Assembly (NCBI RefSeq): GCF_014201655.1
Contig: NZ_JACHEX010000007.1
Location: 1-48,201, forward strand
Source: Thermosipho japonicus
GTDB lineage: Bacteria; Thermotogota; Thermotogae; Thermotogales; Fervidobacteriaceae
DNA length: 48,201 bases
Direction: 5' to 3'
Below are positions 6,136 to 48,009 of the stretch, in pieces. Each line of letters starts with the position of its first letter. Position 1 is the stretch's first letter. The notes under the pieces were generated by a model. The model made no database searches. It worked only from the letters and a program-made list of their open reading frames with translations, and was not told where the DNA came from. The position numbers and the translations under genes were made by a program.

Positions 6136-6178
6136 ATTTTCAGAGAGTTATTTACTAAATTTAAAGGGAGGGGAACAT

Positions 6179-6598
6179 ATGAAAATGAAAAAAGGTTTTA
6201 CTCTAGTTGAACTTTTGATCGTTTTGGCAGTTATTGCCGCATTACTTTCAGTTGCAACACCACTTGCGTTAAACGCGGTAAAAAAGGCAAAAGCAAGTCA
6301 AGTAGCCCAGAACTTTAGGGCTATAAAATCTGCAGTGGAGAATTGGTTTAATACAACCAATCCTAATGATCCAACAACATTAGATGTGGAAAATGATTTA
6401 AAGGGAAAATATCTTAACTCAATTCCTGATGGATTTACAGTATCTGTAGCTGATAGTGGAAGTGGAGTATACACAGTAACTATTGAATATACAAAAAATG
6501 ATATTGCACTTGCAGATGTTCAAAAAAGTGGAATGCCTGAAATTACACAAGATGGAAATAATCTTAAATTAACATTTGATCTTCAAAAGTGGTGGTAA
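6179..6598 (+). CDS. Type IV pilin-like protein with class III signal peptide
   Basis: The 139-residue product begins MKMKKGFTLVELLIVLAVIA. This is a prepilin leader with cleavage expected between Gly6 and Phe7, Glu at mature position 5, and the single hydrophobic helix that anchors the subunit and packs the filament core. The ATG at 6179 follows GGGAGGGG, and a longer frame back to 6107 would overlap the promoter, so 6179 is preferred. The globular part (about 95 residues) has no disulfide cysteines. No pilus assembly genes are nearby, so it depends on a prepilin peptidase and secretion ATPase encoded elsewhere. It could be a major pilin or a type II secretion pseudopilin. Confidence 0.85.
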   Translation: MKMKKGFTLVELLIVLAVIAALLSVATPLALNAVKKAKASQVAQNFRAIKSAVENWFNTTNPNDPTTLDVENDLKGKYLNSIPDGFTVSVADSGSGVYTVTIEYTKNDIALADVQKSGMPEITQDGNNLKLTFDLQKWW

Positions 6599-6617
6599 TA
6601 TAAAATAGTTTTTAGAT

Positions 6618-6643
6618 AAGCCCTCTTAAATGAGGGCTTTTTT
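6618..6643 (+). terminator. Intrinsic terminator after the pilin-like gene
   Basis: AAGCCCTC and GAGGGCTT form an 8-bp stem with loop TTAAAT, followed by TTTTTT. Confidence 0.85.
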
Positions 6644-6718
6644 CTTTGAATATGGAAGAAAATAAGAGAAATTTCTTTTTAATTGATTTAAAAAGAAGTT
6701 TTTAGACCAAAATAAGAC

Positions 6719-6779
6719 TTTACAAACATGGGGGTCTTTTTTATATAATTAGGTTAGTTGATTGAAACAACCAACTAAC
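6719..6779 (+). promoter_or_regulatory. Promoter with palindromic operator for the amino-sugar operon
   Basis: TTTACA (6719-6724) and TATAAT (6744-6749) form a promoter with a somewhat long 19-base spacer. Directly downstream, 6753-6779 is a 27-base inverted repeat with outer arms GTTAGTTG and CAACTAAC and inner TTG/CAA. It covers the expected transcription start, where a bound repressor would block initiation. Because the first gene of the operon encodes a ROK-family DNA-binding protein, autoregulation through this site is a reasonable inference. Confidence 0.65.
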
Positions 6780-6796
6780 ATGAAGGGGTAGGTAGA

Positions 6797-7825
6797 ATGA
6801 TTACAGAGTCTTTGAAAAAAATAATAAGTTATAGCTGGAAAAATAAAGTTGTTACTGCAAAGAATATTTCTTTTGATTTAGGTTTAGAAAAATCCACCGT
6901 ATCGAGAAATATTTCAAAGCTTAGAGGAAAAAATATTTTGATTAAAACAGATGAGTTATCTCCTTCAAATTTGGGAGGAAGAAAAACAATTGTTTATTCA
7001 TTTAACGAAAAATTAGGACATATATTGGGAATTTCTGTTGAGCAAGATGGTATCGAATATGTAAAAACTGATTTGTTTTCTAATGCTTTAGAGAAAAAAA
7101 AGATTGTGCAAAAGATTAATGAAAAAAATATAGCTTTCATTTTAAGAGAAATTATTAAAGAAAACGAAGATATTCTTGGTGTTGGAATTTCTATTCCAGG
7201 TATCATTGAAAATAATACGGTAGTTTTTTCTGAAGCTCTTTCTTTAAAAAATTTTGATCTTGAAAAAACTCTTTTATTAGACATACCAATTTTTGTAGAG
7301 AAAGATTCTATTTGTGGTGCAACAAGATATAGCCTTGAAAGTAAAAATATAGTTTATTTCCAATTGTCTGTTCCATATTATGTAAATGAACCGGTTGGTC
7401 TTGGTGTTGGAATTGTTATTGATGGAAAACCGTACTATGGTCACAGCAATTTTTCTGGTGAGTATAAACTTAATAAAAGTATATACAGTAAAAAGATTTC
7501 ATATGAAGAATTTTTGAAAAAATCGGTTTCTTTAAATGAATTTTTTGATGATATTTCAAAAAAGATAGGTCAAATTTCTAGTATTTTAGATCCAGAAGTT
7601 GTGGTTATAGGTGGAAATATTACTTTAATTTCAGGTATAGAAAAATTAAGAAATTTTGTGGTAGAGCAAGTATATATGTATGAACAAAGAAAGATGAAAA
7701 TAGTTATTGAAGATGCAAAGGAATTTGTGAATGCAGAGGGTGCGGCTATAAATGTGTTAAAAAATATGTTTTTAAAAGAAGAAGGCATTGAATATTTTTG
7801 TAAGAAGGTGATTTTAAATGAATGA
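6797..7825 (+). CDS. ROK-family transcriptional regulator (NagC/XylR type)
   Basis: A 342-residue protein with an N-terminal winged helix-turn-helix (residues about 15-65, including the KSTVSRNISKL recognition-helix region) and a sugar-kinase-like ROK domain (DILGVGISIPGIIENN near 130, EKDSICGA near 170, and GLGVGIVIDGKPYYGHSNFSGE near 205). The usual ROK zinc motif CGCxGCxE is absent, so this is a divergent or non-enzymatic member. Its position first in an operon for amino-sugar uptake and breakdown suggests it senses N-acetylglucosamine, its 6-phosphate or a chito-oligosaccharide and represses the operon through the palindrome just upstream. The ATG follows GGGGTAGGT. The end overlaps the next gene by 8 bases. 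Confidence 0.8.
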   Translation: MITESLKKIISYSWKNKVVTAKNISFDLGLEKSTVSRNISKLRGKNILIKTDELSPSNLGGRKTIVYSFNEKLGHILGISVEQDGIEYVKTDLFSNALEKKKIVQKINEKNIAFILREIIKENEDILGVGISIPGIIENNTVVFSEALSLKNFDLEKTLLLDIPIFVEKDSICGATRYSLESKNIVYFQLSVPYYVNEPVGLGVGIVIDGKPYYGHSNFSGEYKLNKSIYSKKISYEEFLKKSVSLNEFFDDISKKIGQISSILDPEVVVIGGNITLISGIEKLRNFVVEQVYMYEQRKMKIVIEDAKEFVNAEGAAINVLKNMFLKEEGIEYFCKKVILNE

Positions 7826-14471: not shown

Positions 14472-14498
14472 GCATACAGAAAATTGAATATGATGTTA

Positions 14499-14661
14499 AC
14501 ACCTTGGGTACCAAGCAGTTTAAAAGGGAACGCCGGTGGAAGTCCGGGGCTGCCCAGCAACCGTAACCGGGGACGAAATCCACAGAATGCCACTGGGAGT
14601 ATTTCCTGGGAAGGCGTGGAGAGTAGGTTGATCCGGAAGCCGGGAGACCTGCCTAAGGTGT
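14499..14661 (+). ncRNA. Cobalamin (B12) riboswitch aptamer
   Basis: The conserved core of the adenosylcobalamin-type riboswitch is present in order: AAAAGGGAA, GGTGGAAGTCCGGGGCTG, CCCAGCAACCGTAA, GGGGACGAAATCCAC, TGCCACTGGG, TGGGAAGGCGTGGAG, GTAGG, CCGGAAGCCGGGAGACCTGCC. The closing P1 helix is ACACCTT (14499-14505) with AAGGTGT (14655-14661). It sits between a promoter and an intrinsic terminator ahead of cobT, so it most likely turns the whole operon off when cobalamin is plentiful. Confidence 0.97.
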
Positions 14662-14664
14662 AGC

Positions 14665-14705
14665 AATTCCACAAAAGCTAGGGGCTTTTTGTGGAAATTT
14701 TTGTT
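14665..14705 (+). terminator. Riboswitch-controlled terminator
   Basis: AATTCCACAAAAGC pairs with GCTTTTTGTGGAAATT (one bulge), followed by a T-rich run. It starts four bases after the aptamer, as expected for the expression platform. Confidence 0.85.
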
Positions 14706-40812: not shown

Positions 40813-43134
40813 TCACCTCTTTAAGATTTTTTTGGAAAGTTTAAGACCTTCACTTGCATTTTTTGCATAGTATACTCCAAAATTCTCTGCAATTTCCTTA
40901 TTTAATGATGCTCCGCCAGCGATTATTGGAATTTTTATACCTTCCTTTTCGAGTAAGTCCTTTACTTCTTTTATTCTTCCTATAGTTGTTGTCATCATAG
41001 CAGAAAGTCCTAGTATTTCTGGTTGGTGTTTTTTAACCTCTTCAAGAATTTTTGAGGCTGGAACATCTTTTCCAAGATCAATTACGTTGAACCCCGAACT
41101 TTTAAACAATGTTGCAACGATTTTTTTACCAATATCGTGAACGTCGCCTTCAACTGTTGCAACAATTATTGTGCCTATTTTTTGCTTGTCACTCTTTTCA
41201 AGGAGTGAGTTTAAGTATTCAAAGACAGGAGTTACTGTTTCAGCTGCAAGTATAAGGTGTGGAAGGTATATAACACCTTTTGAATATAGCTCTCCAATGT
41301 GTTCCATAGCTTTTGAAAGGATATTTTGACTTATTTGAAGAGGAGAATATTCTTCAAGTAATCTTTCGATTTCTTGTTTTAATTCTTTTTCTTTCTTTTT
41401 AAGGATCATTTCAACAAGAGGATCTTCTTTTAGAATTTCTTGTTTTGCAAGTTCTTTTCCCTTTAGTACGAGTGTTCCAAAAATAGTGTTCATTGTACAC
41501 TTTTCACTTGTATTTAATATAGCGGCATTGAGCCCTTTGTCTATACATAGTGTTAGAAAAGAAGCATTTAAAGCTTCTCTATTTGGCATTCCAAAACTTA
41601 AATTTGAAAGCCCAATGGATGTCATTAAACCTTCTTTTGATAACAATTCTATTGTTTTAACTGTGACATTTGGATCTTTTTTTGCGCCAACTGGAAGAAC
41701 AAGTGGGTCGACTAAGATGCGATTGCGTTTTATCCCATTTTTTTCAAGGTATTCTACAGCTTCTTTTGCAATTTCAAATCTTTCTTTTGCTGTTTCTGGT
41801 ATTTTATCTTTCATTGTAAGAAGAACAAGCATTCCACCGTATCTTTTAAGTAGGTATATTGCATTGTCTAGTTTTTCCTTTTTAGCTGTAGAAGAATTTA
41901 TTATTGGTCTTCCAACGTATTCCTTTAAAGCTTCTTCCATAAATTCAAACTCTTGTATATCAAGGGAAAGAGGTAGACTTCCAATTTTGTCAAGGGTATT
42001 TACAGCAAGGCTAAAATGTGATTTGTCAAGCAGTTTTTCTATTCCAAGATTTACATCTAAAACATGAGCACCTTCCTGCTCTTGCATAGACGCAAGTTCA
42101 ACAATTTTACTAAAATCTTTGTTCTTTATTTTTTCCTGAAATTTCTTTTTACCTGCTGCATTGATTTTCTCACCAATAATTAAGAAGGGGGAAATCTTTT
42201 GCAATTTAGTTCTGCTTGAGACAAATTCTTCCGCTATAATTTTTCTTTTTTTGGGTTTTCTATTCTTTAAAAATTCAACCATTAATCTTATGTGCTCTGG
42301 AGAAGTTCCACAGCACCCTCCAACAATATTTGCACCTATCTCTACAAAATCTTCCATGTAAATTGCAAACTTTTCTGGAGAGGTTTTGTATACAATACTT
42401 CCATCCCTTTGAAGTTTTGGTTTTCCTGCGTTTGGTTCTACACTGATTGGTTTTTTAGAGTATTGAGCTAGTTCTCTAAAAACTGATAATAATTTTTCGG
42501 GTTCTAATGTACAGTTTATTCCAATAACATCTATATCTAAGTCGTTTAGTAAGCTTGCAAAAATTTCAACACTTGTTCCTGTAACAGCTTTTGAATTTTC
42601 CTCAAAAGTCATTTGAGCAATTATTGGTATATCTTGTGAAAGATCCCTGAGTGCAAGAATTGCGGCTTTTAACTCTTTTAAATCAGACATTGTTTCTATT
42701 ATAAAGCCATCAACTCCGGCGTTTAATAATATTTCACCTTGTTCTTTGAAAACGTCATATGCTTCGTTAAATGAGAGTTCACCCAATGGTTCTATTAAAA
42801 ATCCAGTGGATGAAATATCTCCTAGAACATACACATTTCTTTGTCCGACTGCTTTTTTTGCAATTTTAACTGCGTTATAGTTTATATCTTTTATGTCATA
42901 ACTAACTTTTAACGATTTTAGTTTCAGTCTATTTGCACTGAATGTGTTAGTAAGTAGAAAATCCACACCTGCATCAACATATGCTTTTTGAAGGTCAAAG
43001 ACCATTTCTTTATCTGTAATGTTTAGAGTTTCAATAACACCTTTAAATCCCTTTTTAAAAAACTCTGTACCGTATGCACCATCGAGAAAGTAAATTTTTT
43101 CATTAAGCATTTGTAGAAATTCTTTTCTGTTCAA
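40813..43134 (-). CDS. metH: Cobalamin-dependent methionine synthase without activation domain
   Basis: Transfers a methyl group from 5-methyltetrahydrofolate via cob(I)alamin to homocysteine. 773 residues. The homocysteine-binding barrel (about 1-290) has the zinc cysteines in INCTLEP and GGCCGTSPEH. A pterin-binding barrel (about 310-560) begins IGEKINAAGKKKF. The cobalamin module (about 575-773) has DVHDIGKKIVATL, with the cobalt-ligating histidine, and LSAMMTTTIG. The C-terminal SAM-binding reactivation domain of E. coli MetH is missing; it is supplied by the next gene upstream, as in T. maritima TM0268/TM0269. Start TTG. Confidence 0.96.
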   Translation of the reverse strand: MNRKEFLQMLNEKIYFLDGAYGTEFFKKGFKGVIETLNITDKEMVFDLQKAYVDAGVDFLLTNTFSANRLKLKSLKVSYDIKDINYNAVKIAKKAVGQRNVYVLGDISSTGFLIEPLGELSFNEAYDVFKEQGEILLNAGVDGFIIETMSDLKELKAAILALRDLSQDIPIIAQMTFEENSKAVTGTSVEIFASLLNDLDIDVIGINCTLEPEKLLSVFRELAQYSKKPISVEPNAGKPKLQRDGSIVYKTSPEKFAIYMEDFVEIGANIVGGCCGTSPEHIRLMVEFLKNRKPKKRKIIAEEFVSSRTKLQKISPFLIIGEKINAAGKKKFQEKIKNKDFSKIVELASMQEQEGAHVLDVNLGIEKLLDKSHFSLAVNTLDKIGSLPLSLDIQEFEFMEEALKEYVGRPIINSSTAKKEKLDNAIYLLKRYGGMLVLLTMKDKIPETAKERFEIAKEAVEYLEKNGIKRNRILVDPLVLPVGAKKDPNVTVKTIELLSKEGLMTSIGLSNLSFGMPNREALNASFLTLCIDKGLNAAILNTSEKCTMNTIFGTLVLKGKELAKQEILKEDPLVEMILKKKEKELKQEIERLLEEYSPLQISQNILSKAMEHIGELYSKGVIYLPHLILAAETVTPVFEYLNSLLEKSDKQKIGTIIVATVEGDVHDIGKKIVATLFKSSGFNVIDLGKDVPASKILEEVKKHQPEILGLSAMMTTTIGRIKEVKDLLEKEGIKIPIIAGGASLNKEIAENFGVYYAKNASEGLKLSKKILKR

Positions 43135-43137
43135 CTT

Positions 43138-43683
43138 TTACCACCATCCTATCATACATGTTGTCGTTTTTCTTGGGATCATAATACCACTTTCTAAGAC
43201 CTTTATTTTGGTTACTTTTAATAAATTAATGATAGTTCTATTTTCTCTAATGTCTACATCCTCATATCCTGGAGAAAATCTCATTGTCCCATCTTTGTAT
43301 TTTTGCCTTAACTTTTTATCAAAATTATCATTTAAGGTTTCAAGTGCTTCTGAACCCCACGCATCGAGAATCATTCCAGAAAATACTTCTCCATTTTCTG
43401 TGTAATGTTCTATTTTTTTATCTATTTCTTCTCCAAGTGTGGAGACAAAAAGTGTCATTTTTTTAACACCTTTAAATTTTCCTGGAATTATACTCTTTGG
43501 CAGCTTCTCTATGTTAAATGTTTTGTACCAGATAGTTGGAGATGATAAAAAAAGACCTTCAAGATAAAGATCATTTATCTTTTTGATTAATTCTTCATCC
43601 AGTTTTTCATATCTTGTAGATGCTCTTGCAAGGACTATTTTCTTTTTAGGCATATATTCAAATTTTTCGGGGATATAAATCAC
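43138..43683 (-). CDS. Stand-alone methionine synthase activation (SAM-binding) domain
   Basis: A 181-residue protein that resembles the separate MetH reactivation domain of Thermotoga (TM0269). It binds S-adenosylmethionine and remethylates cobalamin after accidental oxidation to cob(II)alamin. Visible parts are LFVSTLGEEIDKKIEHY, ILDAWGSEALETLND and the RFSPGYEDVDI segment matching the RxxPGY motif that contacts SAM. It ends in an unusual KTTTCMIGWW. The GTG start follows AGGAGGAATTAAT. It is immediately upstream of metH, three bases apart. Confidence 0.88.
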   Translation of the reverse strand: MIYIPEKFEYMPKKKIVLARASTRYEKLDEELIKKINDLYLEGLFLSSPTIWYKTFNIEKLPKSIIPGKFKGVKKMTLFVSTLGEEIDKKIEHYTENGEVFSGMILDAWGSEALETLNDNFDKKLRQKYKDGTMRFSPGYEDVDIRENRTIINLLKVTKIKVLESGIMIPRKTTTCMIGWW

Positions 43684-43694
43684 ATTAATTCCTC

Positions 43695-44609
43695 CTATAC
43701 GTGCTTTAATATTTCTACAATTGCATCGGTATTACTCATTGTAAAAAAGTGTATTCCTGGAACATTTTTTTTTAGTTTTTCAATTAATTTTATTGTGTAT
43801 TTTACTCCAACCCAGAATTCTTCTTTTGGAGTTCTTGCACTATCTAATTTTTCCATCAATTCTTCAGGAATATCTACATAAAAAGTTCCAGGAATTTTTA
43901 ATGCACTTTTGTAGCTTAGAATGGGCTTAAGTCCAGGTATAACTTTTACGGTTATTCCTTCATTCCTTAAAAGTTCGACAAAGTTGAAATACTTTTCTAC
44001 GTCAAAGAACATCTGAGTTATTACAAACTGTGCTCCTGCTTCTATCTTCTTCTTTAAGTACTTTATATCGGTTTTTAGATTTGGAGATTCATAGTGTTTT
44101 TCTGGATAGCCTGCTACACCAATGCAAAAGTTTGTTTTTTTGGCTGTTTGATACAAGTATTTTCCATTGTTCATCTCAGAAATTTGTTGAACAAGCTGAT
44201 ATGCATGATCATACTGCCATTCTTTTTTTATTACGTTTTTCTTTTTATCTCCACGAATAACAAATACATTATCGATTCCAAGAAAATCTAGATCGATTAA
44301 TAATTCTTCAAGCTCAAATTTGCTGTTTCCAATACAGGTAAGATGCGGAACTACATCTACATTGTATCTCATCTTTAATGCTGCAACAATTCCCATTGTT
44401 CCTGGTCTTTTAACTTTTGGAAGTTTAAGAATTTGTCCATCTATTTCATAGTATTCAAGCTCTGGAGGATGTTTGGTTACACTTATAAATGCTGGATTGT
44501 ACGGCATTATTTTGTCTATTGCTTTGTATAGATTATCTGCACTATGCCCTCTAAGTGGTGGTATTACTTCAATTGAGATAAAAAAGTCCTTAATTTGAGA
44601 TATCTTCAT
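43695..44609 (-). CDS. metF: 5,10-methylenetetrahydrofolate reductase
   Basis: A 304-residue flavin-dependent TIM-barrel enzyme that makes 5-methyltetrahydrofolate, the methyl donor for MetH. SIEVIPPLRG at residue 12 holds the catalytic glutamate. FISVTKHP, VPHLTCIGNSKFELEELL, FVIRGDKKK, CIGVAGYPEKHYES and AQFVITQMFFDVEKYFNF are conserved. The ATG is 11 bases after a GGGGTTG site and four bases from the previous stop. Together with glyA it links serine to methionine. Confidence 0.95.
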   Translation of the reverse strand: MKISQIKDFFISIEVIPPLRGHSADNLYKAIDKIMPYNPAFISVTKHPPELEYYEIDGQILKLPKVKRPGTMGIVAALKMRYNVDVVPHLTCIGNSKFELEELLIDLDFLGIDNVFVIRGDKKKNVIKKEWQYDHAYQLVQQISEMNNGKYLYQTAKKTNFCIGVAGYPEKHYESPNLKTDIKYLKKKIEAGAQFVITQMFFDVEKYFNFVELLRNEGITVKVIPGLKPILSYKSALKIPGTFYVDIPEELMEKLDSARTPKEEFWVGVKYTIKLIEKLKKNVPGIHFFTMSNTDAIVEILKHV

Positions 44610-44613
44610 TTTT

Positions 44614-45309
44614 TCAACCCCTTATATTATGTATAGCCTTTATGATTATATTATTATCTATTGTAACAATTATATCTTGTATCTCTTCAAAATTTCTTGA
44701 AAGTAAATTTTTTGCATCATGCACATTTTTAATTTTATTAGATATTGCAGTAGCATATGCATCGGCAAGGGCAGGATCACTGCATACAACTGTAGTTGTA
44801 TCTGTTTTGCCAAAATTTTTTGAATGTCCAATTTTTCTCGAAGATGTTGCAACTCCAAACTCTCCAGGGGGTAATTCTAGGTATAAATTATTATTAGTTG
44901 AAAGTATCATTATAGTTGTTGGTTCATGTGAATAAATATATAAATCTCCACCATTTTCTACTAAAAGTTTTTTTGGGTTTACTATTTTTTTAATATATTG
45001 TCCAATATGTTTTGCGAAAGCACCTGCAACAGCCGCCATTGGTCCAACATTTGCCTTTTTTGAAGCTTTAAGCATATCTTTTGCTACTTTTGGAGCATTC
45101 TCATCAAATGCAATTGGCTTTAAAGATGAAAGAAAAGTTTTTGTTGCGTATCCTTCCAGTTCTTTTCTCAAAGAAACAAGATAGTTGTAAGCTAGAACTG
45201 AAAGTCCCGTATCATCTTTGTCTAATGCAATCCAGAGGTCACTTTCTTTGTATTTTATGGCAAACGAAAAAAGATTATTTCCCATGAAACTTCTGTAAAA
45301 TCTTTTCAA
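44614..45309 (-). CDS. UPF0280 (COG2122) protein, homocysteine-biosynthesis associated
   Basis: A 231-residue protein of the COG2122 group, a thiamine-biosynthesis-like ApbE/NosX-fold family by some annotations. In Methanosarcina the homologue MA1715 was linked genetically to homocysteine synthesis from aspartate semialdehyde. Recognisable segments are MAAVAGAFAKHIGQYI near 95, LVENGGDLYIY near 118 and CSDPALADAYATAISNKI near 180. The TTG at 45309 is preferred: it overlaps the previous stop (TTGA) and follows GGGGG at eight bases. A longer reading from 45348 would overlap the COG1900 gene. The biochemical role is not known. Confidence 0.85.
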   Translation of the reverse strand: MKRFYRSFMGNNLFSFAIKYKESDLWIALDKDDTGLSVLAYNYLVSLRKELEGYATKTFLSSLKPIAFDENAPKVAKDMLKASKKANVGPMAAVAGAFAKHIGQYIKKIVNPKKLLVENGGDLYIYSHEPTTIMILSTNNNLYLELPPGEFGVATSSRKIGHSKNFGKTDTTTVVCSDPALADAYATAISNKIKNVHDAKNLLSRNFEEIQDIIVTIDNNIIIKAIHNIRG

Positions 45310-46604
45310 TTTATCAGCCCCCATGGAAGCTTTATTCCAACGGGGCAAACATCACTACAAACTCCGCAATTTGTACATTTTGTTCTTTCAAACTTTACTG
45401 TGTCATTTTCTATGTATAAAGCATTACAGTATCCTGTACACAAACCGCAATTTACACATTCGTTTTTTATGAGTTTTTCTTGCTTATTACTTTTTGTGTT
45501 TAATTTTTTGTAATCAGATTTTGATGGAAGATAAGCAACTGGTTTTGTAAGGAAAAATTCTCTATTTGTAATTTGTCTTTTTAATTCATTTGCTATTTTT
45601 CTTGATACATTCATACTGGTAATAGGAGCAGTTTTTACGTATTTACCATTTAACTTGATTTTATTACTTTTTAATTCTTGATAAGTTACCTCTCTTATTA
45701 TAGGTTTATCATGTTTTGAGTAGTCTCTTACTGTGGTTACAAGGTCTGAGTTTGAGCGAGTTACATAGTAAGCCATCTCTTCGTCCAGTATAGGAATTGG
45801 AATACCGATTCCTATAAATATAGTAACTCCATATCCTTTAAACTTTGCTGCTCTAATATATTCTCTTGACATTTCTTTTGCATTTCCAATAACTGCTAGA
45901 GTTCTAGAGGGGTTTTTGGGGATGTCTTCTGTACTTGGATTATACTGTGTTCCTTGCCAGACAATGTATCCCTGAGTTCCTCCAAAGAATATTCTAGTGC
46001 CTATTCCTATAGTTTTTAACTTTGGATCTTTTAAAAGTGGACTTAATTCTCCTGAAGTAGCATAAGTAACATTTGAATAATTTGGAAGTAATTTTCCCAT
46101 ATATGTATAAATAGTTTTATTAGAACCATTTGTTGCAGCTGAATAATTTTGATATACATTTCGTGGATTAAAAAAATAGAATTCATTTATGAGCTCTTTA
46201 TTTATGTAACCTTCAATTTTTTTCCTAGGATAACAGTCTGTTCCTTTTGCGTTGGCAGATAAAAATACATCCTGACCAGAAATAAGTTTTTCAATAACGT
46301 AGGAACCACCAATTCCATCTTCCTGAGTTGCTCCCAAAAATCCATCAACAGCGGCAAGACCTCCATGAACAGTGACTCCATCTAACTTTATTTCTTCCAT
46401 TCTCATAGGTGGTGTTGTGTGGCCAAAATTGAAGAAAACACCAGATGAACACATTGGTGAAAAGGTTCCAGTGGTTACTACGTCAACGTTTTCGTATACG
46501 TACTTTACCCCCTTTTCTTTAGAAAGGTTTACAGCTTCTTCTGCTGTTAAAACCACCACTTTTCCTTTTTTTATTTTTTCGTTGATTTCTTCAAAAGTTC
46601 TCAT
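45306..46604 (-). CDS. COG1900 (DUF39) L-aspartate semialdehyde sulfurtransferase-like protein fused to a 2x[4Fe-4S] ferredoxin domain
   Basis: Residues 1 to about 360 are the DUF39 domain, whose methanogen relative (MA1821) takes part in converting aspartate semialdehyde and a sulfide-derived sulfur to homocysteine. Two conserved cysteines stand out, Cys52 in FSPMCSSG and Cys124 in KGTDCYPRK. GRGGT-like text FFGGTQGYIVWQGTQYNP is typical. Residues about 378-425 carry CVNCGLCTGYCN and CTNCGVCSDVCPVG, eight cysteines for two [4Fe-4S] clusters. In methanogens the ferredoxin is a separate protein with a NIL domain (MA1822); no NIL domain is present here. ATGA overlap with the aspartokinase gene. 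Confidence 0.88.
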   Translation of the reverse strand: MRTFEEINEKIKKGKVVVLTAEEAVNLSKEKGVKYVYENVDVVTTGTFSPMCSSGVFFNFGHTTPPMRMEEIKLDGVTVHGGLAAVDGFLGATQEDGIGGSYVIEKLISGQDVFLSANAKGTDCYPRKKIEGYINKELINEFYFFNPRNVYQNYSAATNGSNKTIYTYMGKLLPNYSNVTYATSGELSPLLKDPKLKTIGIGTRIFFGGTQGYIVWQGTQYNPSTEDIPKNPSRTLAVIGNAKEMSREYIRAAKFKGYGVTIFIGIGIPIPILDEEMAYYVTRSNSDLVTTVRDYSKHDKPIIREVTYQELKSNKIKLNGKYVKTAPITSMNVSRKIANELKRQITNREFFLTKPVAYLPSKSDYKKLNTKSNKQEKLIKNECVNCGLCTGYCNALYIENDTVKFERTKCTNCGVCSDVCPVGIKLPWGLIN

Positions 46605-47752
46605 ATAACCCCCTCCCTTGCAAATAGGATATTGTGTATAACATTTAGAATGTTTTTAAGGTTTTTATTTTCTACCAGAAGAATTAAAAAATTTTTCCCG
46701 TCTTTGAGTAACCAAAAGTTAAAATTGTGAAAATAGAGACTATTTAAGATAAGAAGTTTTTTTCCAATGTCTAAATCTCCTCCTACTAGTATAAGTGACA
46801 AGTTTTCTTTTATACTTATTGATGAGAAGTTATCTTTTATACTTTCAAACTTATCTTTTTCTATTATTACGTTTGCGTTGTTTTGAAATATGTCCATGTA
46901 CTTAGCATTTTTGGGTATTTTTTTCAACTTTCCATTTACAAATAAGAGATCTTCTAAAAAACTGATTGATAAAACTCCAACATTAGTTTCATTTCCTATG
47001 ATAGTGGACCCACTTTTGTCTATTCCCTTTATTATTATTGGGATATTTTTAGATTTTGCAGGAGCAATTGCCTTATATTGGATGATCTTTGCTCCAAAAT
47101 ATGCAAGAAGCTCTGCTATTTCATATGAAATTTTTGTAATTGGGAAAGGATTTTTAACAAGTTTAGGATCACAAGTGAATAGTTGACTTACATCTTTATA
47201 TAGAGTTACATTTTCGGCGTCTAATATATTTGCCAAAGTTGTTGCTGTATAGTCACTTCCACCTCGTCCAAGAGTTTTTATTTTTCCATTGTGTATAGCA
47301 TAAAAACCTGGGACAATGTAAATCTTTTTCTCTTTAAAATATGATTTTATACTCCTTTTGAGTTCTAATTTTTTACCATTTTTTGTTAGATTTAGTTCTA
47401 TTTCTTCTGGAAGTTTTTCTTCGACGTTGAAACCTTTCTTTTCTAAAAATAATTTAAGTGCTAGGGAATTACATCTTTCACCGTGAGAGATTATTTTTTC
47501 ATAGTCTGTTTCATTCAAAATTTCATACACTCTTTCTTTTAACTCTTCTGATTCAAAGCCAGTTAAACTGGAAAGCCTTTGATAAATATTTTCAAGGAGT
47601 TCTTTGTTAATTTGGTTATTTAAAAGTAAATCTGTGACCCCATATGGTGCTGAGACAACTATTACTAGGTTGTCTTGATCAAGTAATGGTAGTACTTTAA
47701 AAAAAGAATCTTTATCTTTAAATATGGAACCACCAAGTTTAATAACTTTCAA
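46601..47752 (-). CDS. Aspartokinase
   Basis: Phosphorylates aspartate as the entry to aspartate semialdehyde, here the carbon skeleton for homocysteine. 383 residues. The kinase part starts VIKLGGSIFKDKDSF (usually KFGGTS), then HGERCNSLALKLFL near 127, LGRGGSDYTATTLANIL near 163 and YKDVSQLFTCDPKLV near 185. The last 110 residues form a weak, shortened ACT-type regulatory region. The start is a TTG preceded by AAGGGGGTG. Aspartate semialdehyde dehydrogenase is not in this window. Being first behind the Met-rich leader, it is likely dedicated to methionine synthesis. Confidence 0.9.
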   Translation of the reverse strand: MKVIKLGGSIFKDKDSFFKVLPLLDQDNLVIVVSAPYGVTDLLLNNQINKELLENIYQRLSSLTGFESEELKERVYEILNETDYEKIISHGERCNSLALKLFLEKKGFNVEEKLPEEIELNLTKNGKKLELKRSIKSYFKEKKIYIVPGFYAIHNGKIKTLGRGGSDYTATTLANILDAENVTLYKDVSQLFTCDPKLVKNPFPITKISYEIAELLAYFGAKIIQYKAIAPAKSKNIPIIIKGIDKSGSTIIGNETNVGVLSISFLEDLLFVNGKLKKIPKNAKYMDIFQNNANVIIEKDKFESIKDNFSSISIKENLSLILVGGDLDIGKKLLILNSLYFHNFNFWLLKDGKNFLILLVENKNLKNILNVIHNILFAREGVI

Positions 47753-47776: not shown

Positions 47777-47810
47777 AAAAAGGCGGCCAGTTTTTACTGA
47801 CCGCCTTTTT
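47777..47810 (-). terminator. Attenuator terminator of the methionine operon
   Basis: On the minus strand GGCGGTCAG (47805-47797) pairs with CTGGCCGCC (47790-47782) through one G-T pair around loop TAAAAA, extended by A/T pairs and ending in TTTTT. It lies between the leader peptide and the aspartokinase gene, so transcripts stopping here never reach the operon. Its 5' arm can pair instead with an identical CTGGCCGCC at 47867-47859. Confidence 0.88.
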
Positions 47811-47852
47811 GCTATTAGTTAATTCCTACTAATTAAAAGCTATAGAGCAAAA
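47807..47852 (-). promoter_or_regulatory. Intermediate hairpin of the leader RNA
   Basis: On the minus strand TTTTGCT (47852-47846) pairs with AGCAAAA (47813-47807), with an inner stem TTAGT/ACTAA. It contains the leader peptide stop codon and adjoins the terminator stem. It may help to space or time the alternative structures. Confidence 0.5.
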
Positions 47853-47959
47853 GATAATGGCGGCCAGTTTTTCCACATGCCGCACATTATCATCATATTT
47901 ACATTTAAGAAAGATTTACTATACATTGAAGTGTGATTCTTAAAGATAATTTCTTGCAA
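47840..47959 (-). CDS. Methionine-rich leader peptide (39 codons)
   Basis: A TTG start at 47959 lies seven bases after AAAAGGGGG, the same type of start as the aspartokinase gene, and about 16 bases after the predicted transcription start. The frame runs 39 codons to TAG at 47842-47840. Codons 22-28 read Met-Met-Ile-Met-Cys-Gly-Met, a density of ATG codons very unlike ordinary protein. An internal ATG (codon 12) is another possible start. These codons overlap the 5' arm of a hairpin that controls an attenuator. The peptide itself probably has no function; ribosome stalling on its Met codons when charged Met-tRNA is scarce should prevent termination. Confidence 0.8.
   Translation of the reverse strand: MQEIIFKNHTSMYSKSFLNVNMMIMCGMWKNWPPLSFAL
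47853..47891 (-). promoter_or_regulatory. Leader hairpin that sequesters the antiterminator strand
   Basis: On the minus strand GATAATG (47891-47885) pairs with CATTATC (47859-47853) and GCGGC (47883-47879) with GCCGC (47864-47860), leaving one bulged T. The 5' arm holds Met codons 25 and 28 of the leader peptide. The 3' arm contains CTGGCCGCC, which is free to pair with the terminator's 5' arm GGCGGTCAG only when this hairpin is open. Confidence 0.8.
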
Positions 47960-47981
47960 TTTTCTTCCCCCTTTTGATGAG

Positions 47982-48009
47982 ATTTTAACAAATAATTTTT
48001 GTTTGTCAA
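47982..48009 (-). promoter_or_regulatory. Promoter of the methionine operon
   Basis: On the minus strand a perfect TTGACA (48009-48004) and TAAAAT (47987-47982) are separated by 16 bases, with a TG extension (TGTTAAAAT). Transcription should begin near 47975. Confidence 0.8.

Follow-up and report, generated by a model that had tools for sequence, protein, structure and literature searches.

Leaders with clustered methionine codons as putative transcription attenuators of methionine operons in the Thermotogae

Introduction

The control of methionine genes in bacteria has been described in terms of SAM riboswitches, T-boxes or repressors (PMC3766115, PMC4239095). Of the amino-acid attenuators listed in a 2013 survey, those for His, Leu, Thr and Trp had Rfam entries, and Ile/Val and Phe systems had been characterised as well (PMC3766115). 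In Actinobacteria, a 2005 study detected no conserved RNA structure ahead of the methionine operons (PMC1262725). The window analysed here, a 48,201-nucleotide stretch of Thermosipho japonicus DNA, raises the question of whether a methionine operon can be controlled through the translation of a short leader with clustered Met codons. The original prediction, which proposed such control, had added that no well-characterised Met leader-peptide attenuator was known. This holds in the open literature (subscription journals and preprints lay outside the scope of the search), bar one weak, sequence-based prediction that was the sole find: a Met-containing leader, metL (MSTTSDRTPATEATTTPGARCMCRRMCAF), placed before the metNIQ importer operon in a 2021 reannotation of Streptomyces lividans (PMC8079986). 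Like the leaders described below, the predicted metL contains Met codons, and like some of them it precedes a methionine importer operon. However, its Met codons are few and scattered, it is leaderless, no intrinsic terminator was found, and it comes from a single genome of the Actinobacteria with no conservation shown.

The operon and its leader

The first gene of the operon (46601-47752; this and all features of the operon and leader lie on the minus strand) encodes an aspartate kinase (PF00696, E 1.5e-35; TIGR00657, E 5e-46), begins with TTG and is preceded by GGGGGTG. It is followed by a COG1900/HcyBio homocysteine biosynthesis protein with a ferredoxin domain (45306-46604; PF01837, E 3.5e-131), whose family takes in the L-aspartate semialdehyde sulfurtransferase of homocysteine synthesis (PMC12068725), and by the COG1900 partner of the UPF0280 family (44614-45348; NF003323, E 1.4e-50). 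The methylenetetrahydrofolate reductase MetF (43695-44609; TIGR00676, E 3.9e-79), a MetH reactivation-domain protein (43138-43683; assigned from its place before metH and a PF02965 match just under the cut-off, E 3.3e-05) and the cobalamin-dependent methionine synthase MetH (40813-43134; TIGR02082, E 1e-137; PF02574, PF00809 and PF02310) come next. A nitroreductase-like protein is last in order, after MetH, and the genes overlap or are separated by short gaps. Aspartate semialdehyde dehydrogenase was not among the window operon genes. This gene content indicated that the pathway runs from aspartate towards methionine, and the proposal that the operon makes methionine was borne out by the profile matches; the same leader also precedes metQ import genes.

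Upstream of the operon, a sigma-70 type promoter (47982-48009) consists of TTGACA (48009-48004), a 16-nt spacer and TAAAAT (47987-47982), with 11 of 12 consensus matches, and both hexamers are the same in another genome of the genus (G001). The leader ORF (47840-47959), supported by orthologues, has 39 codons and a TTG start at 47959, and reads MQEIIFKNHTSMYSKSFLNVNMMIMCGMWKNWPPLSFAL. Its ribosome binding site, GGGGG (47967-47971), lies 7 nt 5' of the start and is kept in G001. The promoter and the leader ORF with its G-rich ribosome binding site were all present at the minus-strand positions originally predicted.

The ATG codons 22, 23, 25 and 28 start at 47896, 47893, 47887 and 47878, in full agreement with the predicted positions, but codon 28 (47878-47876) is not conserved, as G007 shows. 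The conserved core is therefore Met22-Met23-Ile24-Met25 (ATG ATG ATA ATG, 47885-47896). In the orthologous leaders of G001 and G003, which belong to the window's genus, and of G007, from another genus of the same family, the frame is kept while the N-termini have diverged, and all three carry AAYATGATGATAATGYGCGGC in frame. This segment is invariant in four genomes, and an exact copy was found nowhere else in the 103 genomes searched.

Folding of the leader RNA

The sequence bore out the predicted regions 2, 3 and 4. CTGGCCGCC occurs at 47867-47859 in region 2 and again, letter for letter, at 47790-47782 in region 4; the core of region 3, GGCGGTCAG, lies at 47805-47797, and a T run (47781-47776) follows the terminator stem. 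Region 3 pairs with region 4 to form an intrinsic terminator of 15 pairs (47777-47810; -23.5 kcal/mol, z -6.6). The 2:3 helix is also present, although it was incomplete as first described. Region 2 (47846-47868) comprises ACTGGCCGCC (47868-47859) and a second part, TTTTGCT (47852-47846), which pairs with AGCAAAA (47813-47807); the latter, together with GGCGGTCAGT (47805-47796), makes up region 3 (47796-47813), which is common to antiterminator and terminator. Likewise, the hairpin of regions 1 and 2, GATAATG-T-GCGGC ... GCCGC-CATTATC, was found but not in its predicted extent: it is longer (about 47891-47852; -20.9 kcal/mol, z -5.4) because CATTATC also pairs with GATAATG. As a result of this extension, Met codon 25 falls inside the protector hairpin. 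In a shuffle test, 0 of 200 shuffles were as good as the terminator (z -6.6), the protector (z -5.4) or the antiterminator segment (z -3.9), and 0 of 500 were as good as the region 2:region 3 duplex (-22.8 kcal/mol).

With region 1 exposed, the best predicted fold up to the terminator loop is the protector, and the main 2:3 helix is unformed. When everything 5' of 47875 was masked, as a proxy for a ribosome at the Met codons, region 2 paired with region 3 and the best predicted fold became the 2:3 antiterminator. Moreover, the predicted probability of the 2:3 helix was 0.00 in the ribosome-free RNA vs. 0.82-0.95 with a ribosome at any Met codon; the value of 0.00 with a ribosome at the stop codon arises because the model puts region 2 under or behind the ribosome. 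In this folding model, the window leader is thus predicted to behave like a classical switch.

Met leaders across the class

Orthologous aspartokinase genes with their upstream DNA were the first source of relatives. The window aspartokinase, used as a query against genome contigs, found no relative. Leaders were collected from operon starts around COG1900, from a pattern search of 103 genomes and from metQ loci; the genomes include a Mesoaciditogaceae bacterium (G073) and a Thermotogaceae bacterium (G023). Altogether, 42 leaders share the same layout, and they are spread over eight families (f1, f2, f4, f5, f6, f8, f9 and f11). Methionine biosynthesis genes follow 25 of them and metQ methionine import genes 16, with metN- and metI-like ORFs downstream in four of the metQ loci. 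The remaining leader (G067; L136, 972-1130) is intact and has its terminator; it looks orphaned because the next long ORF resembles arginyl-tRNA synthetase and no methionine gene lies behind it.

In 42/42 leaders the U tract follows the Met cluster at a distance of 87-115 nt, and the terminators range from -16 to -26 kcal/mol. Nearly all have a Shine-Dalgarno-like sequence ahead of the chosen start, although no such site was scored in G065. Most often, the protector hairpin begins with the final base of the last Met codon. Between families the stem letters are wholly unlike, yet self-consistent, and an in-frame Met cluster by a protector, a buried region 2, a stop codon and a terminator recur. 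Even within the window's own family, other genomes have leaders with Met-Met-Ala/Pro-Met-Met-Met and entirely different stems. The original prediction had named an alignment across relatives as its check, and leaders that keep the stems while losing the Met codons or the frame as evidence against it. The opposite was observed: the in-frame Met cluster is kept in 42 leaders and the stems differ completely from family to family.

Region 2 starts 0-15 nt past the last Met codon. By the same method, region 2 was placed 5 nt after the last regulatory codon in E. coli thrL (z -4.5) and at 13 nt in trpL (z -1.0), so the range of the Met leaders is that of textbook attenuators. A measure of whether region 3 pairs with anything upstream failed to separate real from shuffled spacers, and the 2:3 duplex energy was used instead. 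Against shuffled spacers the median z of this duplex was -3.3 to -4.0 in f1, f5, f8 and f9, -2.1 in f6, a weak -1.6 in f2 and f4, and -1.0 in f11, where most leaders were no better than the shuffles. At equilibrium, RNA without a ribosome favours 2:3 over the protector in most relatives (median P 0.94), and the full-length RNA favours the terminator in nearly every state, so that equilibrium folding cannot tell a stalled from a released ribosome. Given these equilibrium preferences, the switch in most relatives must be kinetic, that is, set by the order of events.

Several loci differ in the surroundings of the leader. In one (L087, G005, 6150-7588), an IS-like insert of about 1.4 kb lies between the aspartokinase gene and an intact Met leader with its terminator. 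In another (L141, G025, around 912-1564), a leader ORF containing Met-Ile-Met, together with a strong terminator, precedes a 174-residue protein that gave no Pfam or NCBIfam match. The gene order MetH-activation, MetH, aspartokinase, COG1900 is seen in L071-L075 and L079, from f2 genera g10 and g11, and in L076, from Fervidobacterium sp. UBA5837 (G009); no Met leader was found at these operon starts. The presence of this MetH-activation-first order inside a Fervidobacterium suggests transfer.

Covariation and methionine specificity

Eight Fervidobacterium-type leaders could be compared pair by pair. In the 2:3 helix, two-sided changes occur at 4/11 pairs and 96.6% of cells are paired; the covariation was 0.338 vs. 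0.149 for shuffled alignments (0/500), which is support rather than proof because the sequences are few and related. The 3:4 helix of the Fervidobacterium-type leaders has one two-sided pair. Column 75 in region 3 (G/A) co-varies with both column 33 in region 2 (C/T) and column 103 in region 4 (C/T), a three-way change through which one base appears to stay complementary to two alternative partners. Covariation in the 1:2 stem (GGTGTACC/GGTACACC vs. GGCGTACC/GGTATGCC) was judged by eye, because in the MAFFT alignment the 1' arms of G011 and G015 are out of place.

The specificity for methionine was assessed by a scan for each of the 20 residues, in which a match was a short ORF that has the residue three times within five codons and a strong terminator behind it (0.72 Mb over both strands). 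The scanned loci had been picked by COG1900 and not by Met codons. Met gave 19 matches, all belonging to the set of 42 leaders. Other residues gave 0-9 matches each with no common pattern, and several of these were the same leaders or coding overlaps. Furthermore, the Met scan of 80 COG1900 loci, mostly from other phyla, gave one match, in a Mesoaciditogaceae (Thermotogota) record, and the control strand of those 80 loci gave none.

Proposed mechanism and alternatives

The Met leader is very probably a ribosome-mediated transcription attenuator for which the signal is the supply of methionine, most likely read as charged elongator tRNA-Met. The elements expected of an attenuator were found together: a translatable leader ORF, a cluster of cognate codons, mutually exclusive 2:3 and 3:4 helices sharing region 3, and a protector that a ribosome at the regulatory codons would open. 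From the observed anatomy, conservation, covariation, Met specificity and gene context, we infer stalling, termination and a response to methionine as follows. When methionine is scarce, a ribosome would stall on Met22-Met25 and cover the 5' arm of the protector; region 2 would then be free to pair with region 3, no terminator would form and the operon would be transcribed. When methionine is plentiful, the ribosome would pass region 2 to reach the stop codon, 3:4 would form, and transcription would end before the aspartokinase gene. The same device would govern methionine biosynthesis or import operons throughout the class. The interpretation as a Met attenuator is well supported by the Met cluster kept in 42 leaders, by the methionine operon of the window and by the metQ context.

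Three other readings were weighed. The leader could encode an arrest peptide, whose nascent chain would sense methionine or SAM in the ribosome tunnel independently of tRNA charging. Arrest peptides govern other operons, and in these short leaders the residue after the conserved core is C, R, W or Y. However, the would-be tunnel residues before the Met cluster vary even within one family, the residue after it varies as well, and the Met run is placed where a starvation stall is needed, which makes an arrest peptide improbable. Less likely again is an undescribed riboswitch in which the AUG repeats are an RNA motif and not codons. Since Met has a single codon, synonymous change cannot part codon conservation from RNA conservation, so the two look alike, and the leader occupies the position that the SAM riboswitch holds in relatives. 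Yet no conserved RNA core extends beyond the Met run, the families have entirely different stems and loops, and the AUGs hold a 3-nt phase around varied codons (GCT, CCT, ATA, AATACC and TGG). In addition, no Rfam family reached its gathering score on the window leader, and no T-box appeared even among the weak matches; the SAM-I covariance model (RF00162) had no match in the window or its own genome, and this riboswitch is absent from the window's family. On these covariance-model results, a known riboswitch or T-box was rejected as a candidate for the window leader. Finally, terminators abound and chance alone yields short ORFs, but an ordinary terminator beside a chance ORF, with no regulation, deserves almost no credence against 42 conserved cases, the Met specificity, the covariation, and the single Thermotogota match in 80 COG1900 loci with none on the control strand.

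A Met-codon attenuator faces a particular constraint. A shortage of methionine limits not only elongation but also initiation, so the device must act while ribosomes can still initiate on its own leader; and because the start codon of the leader itself calls for charged (formyl)methionyl-tRNA, elongator and initiator tRNA-Met would have to be discriminated.

Relation to known systems

Ribosome-mediated attenuation is already known; methionine as the sensed amino acid, and the spread of such leaders through one phylum, would be new. A close parallel is thrL of E. coli, which likewise has a leader peptide with regulatory codons and alternative 2:3 and 3:4 helices before an aspartokinase gene. 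In contrast to the Met leader, thrL senses Thr and Ile, its sequence is unrelated, and it belongs to another phylum and pathway branch. The three-helix logic of trpL in E. coli is also alike, although trpL senses Trp and has its stop codon ahead of region 2, not after it as in the Met leaders. The methionine-specific T-box RNA of Lactobacillaceae (PMC4239095) reads tRNA-Met charging for methionine genes, as the Met leader would, but binds the tRNA directly without translation and has a conserved RNA core that was not seen here. The SAM-I riboswitch (S box, RF00162) controls the same genes; unlike the Met leader, it binds SAM directly and has no translated leader. A Met-codon attenuator in 42 leaders would add methionine to the sensed amino acids and would explain a possible control of methionine genes in Thermotogota families without SAM riboswitches.

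Exchange and tandem use with SAM riboswitches

Exchange with a riboswitch and use in tandem with one would be new as well, and the loci concerned would show a riboswitch and a leader peptide swapped or combined in nature. Among the 103 genomes, SAM-I riboswitches occur in f9 only. In several f9 genomes metQ is preceded by a SAM riboswitch and not by a Met leader; in the same comparison, a Met leader is present in G072, G076, G081, G096 and G078. In L097 (G084, reverse-complement 7464-7800), a SAM-I riboswitch with its own terminator is followed by a Met leader with a second terminator and then by the aspartokinase gene. We lean slightly towards a broader reading, in which a class-wide Met-codon attenuator has to discriminate the charging of elongator from that of initiator tRNA-Met and, in one lineage or more, stands in series after a SAM riboswitch, giving separate control by SAM and by methionine.

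In L099 (G087, 7453-7790), a SAM riboswitch likewise comes first, and a second leader (..MSDMYNMKINNSIKSNKHKKVLIIGIT) with a terminator lies behind it. In this leader the Met codons are scattered and Lys-rich codons lie closer to the stem; it may have decayed or may sense something else. The window itself also contains a cobalamin riboswitch on the plus strand, at 14489-14670 (RF00174, 120 bits).
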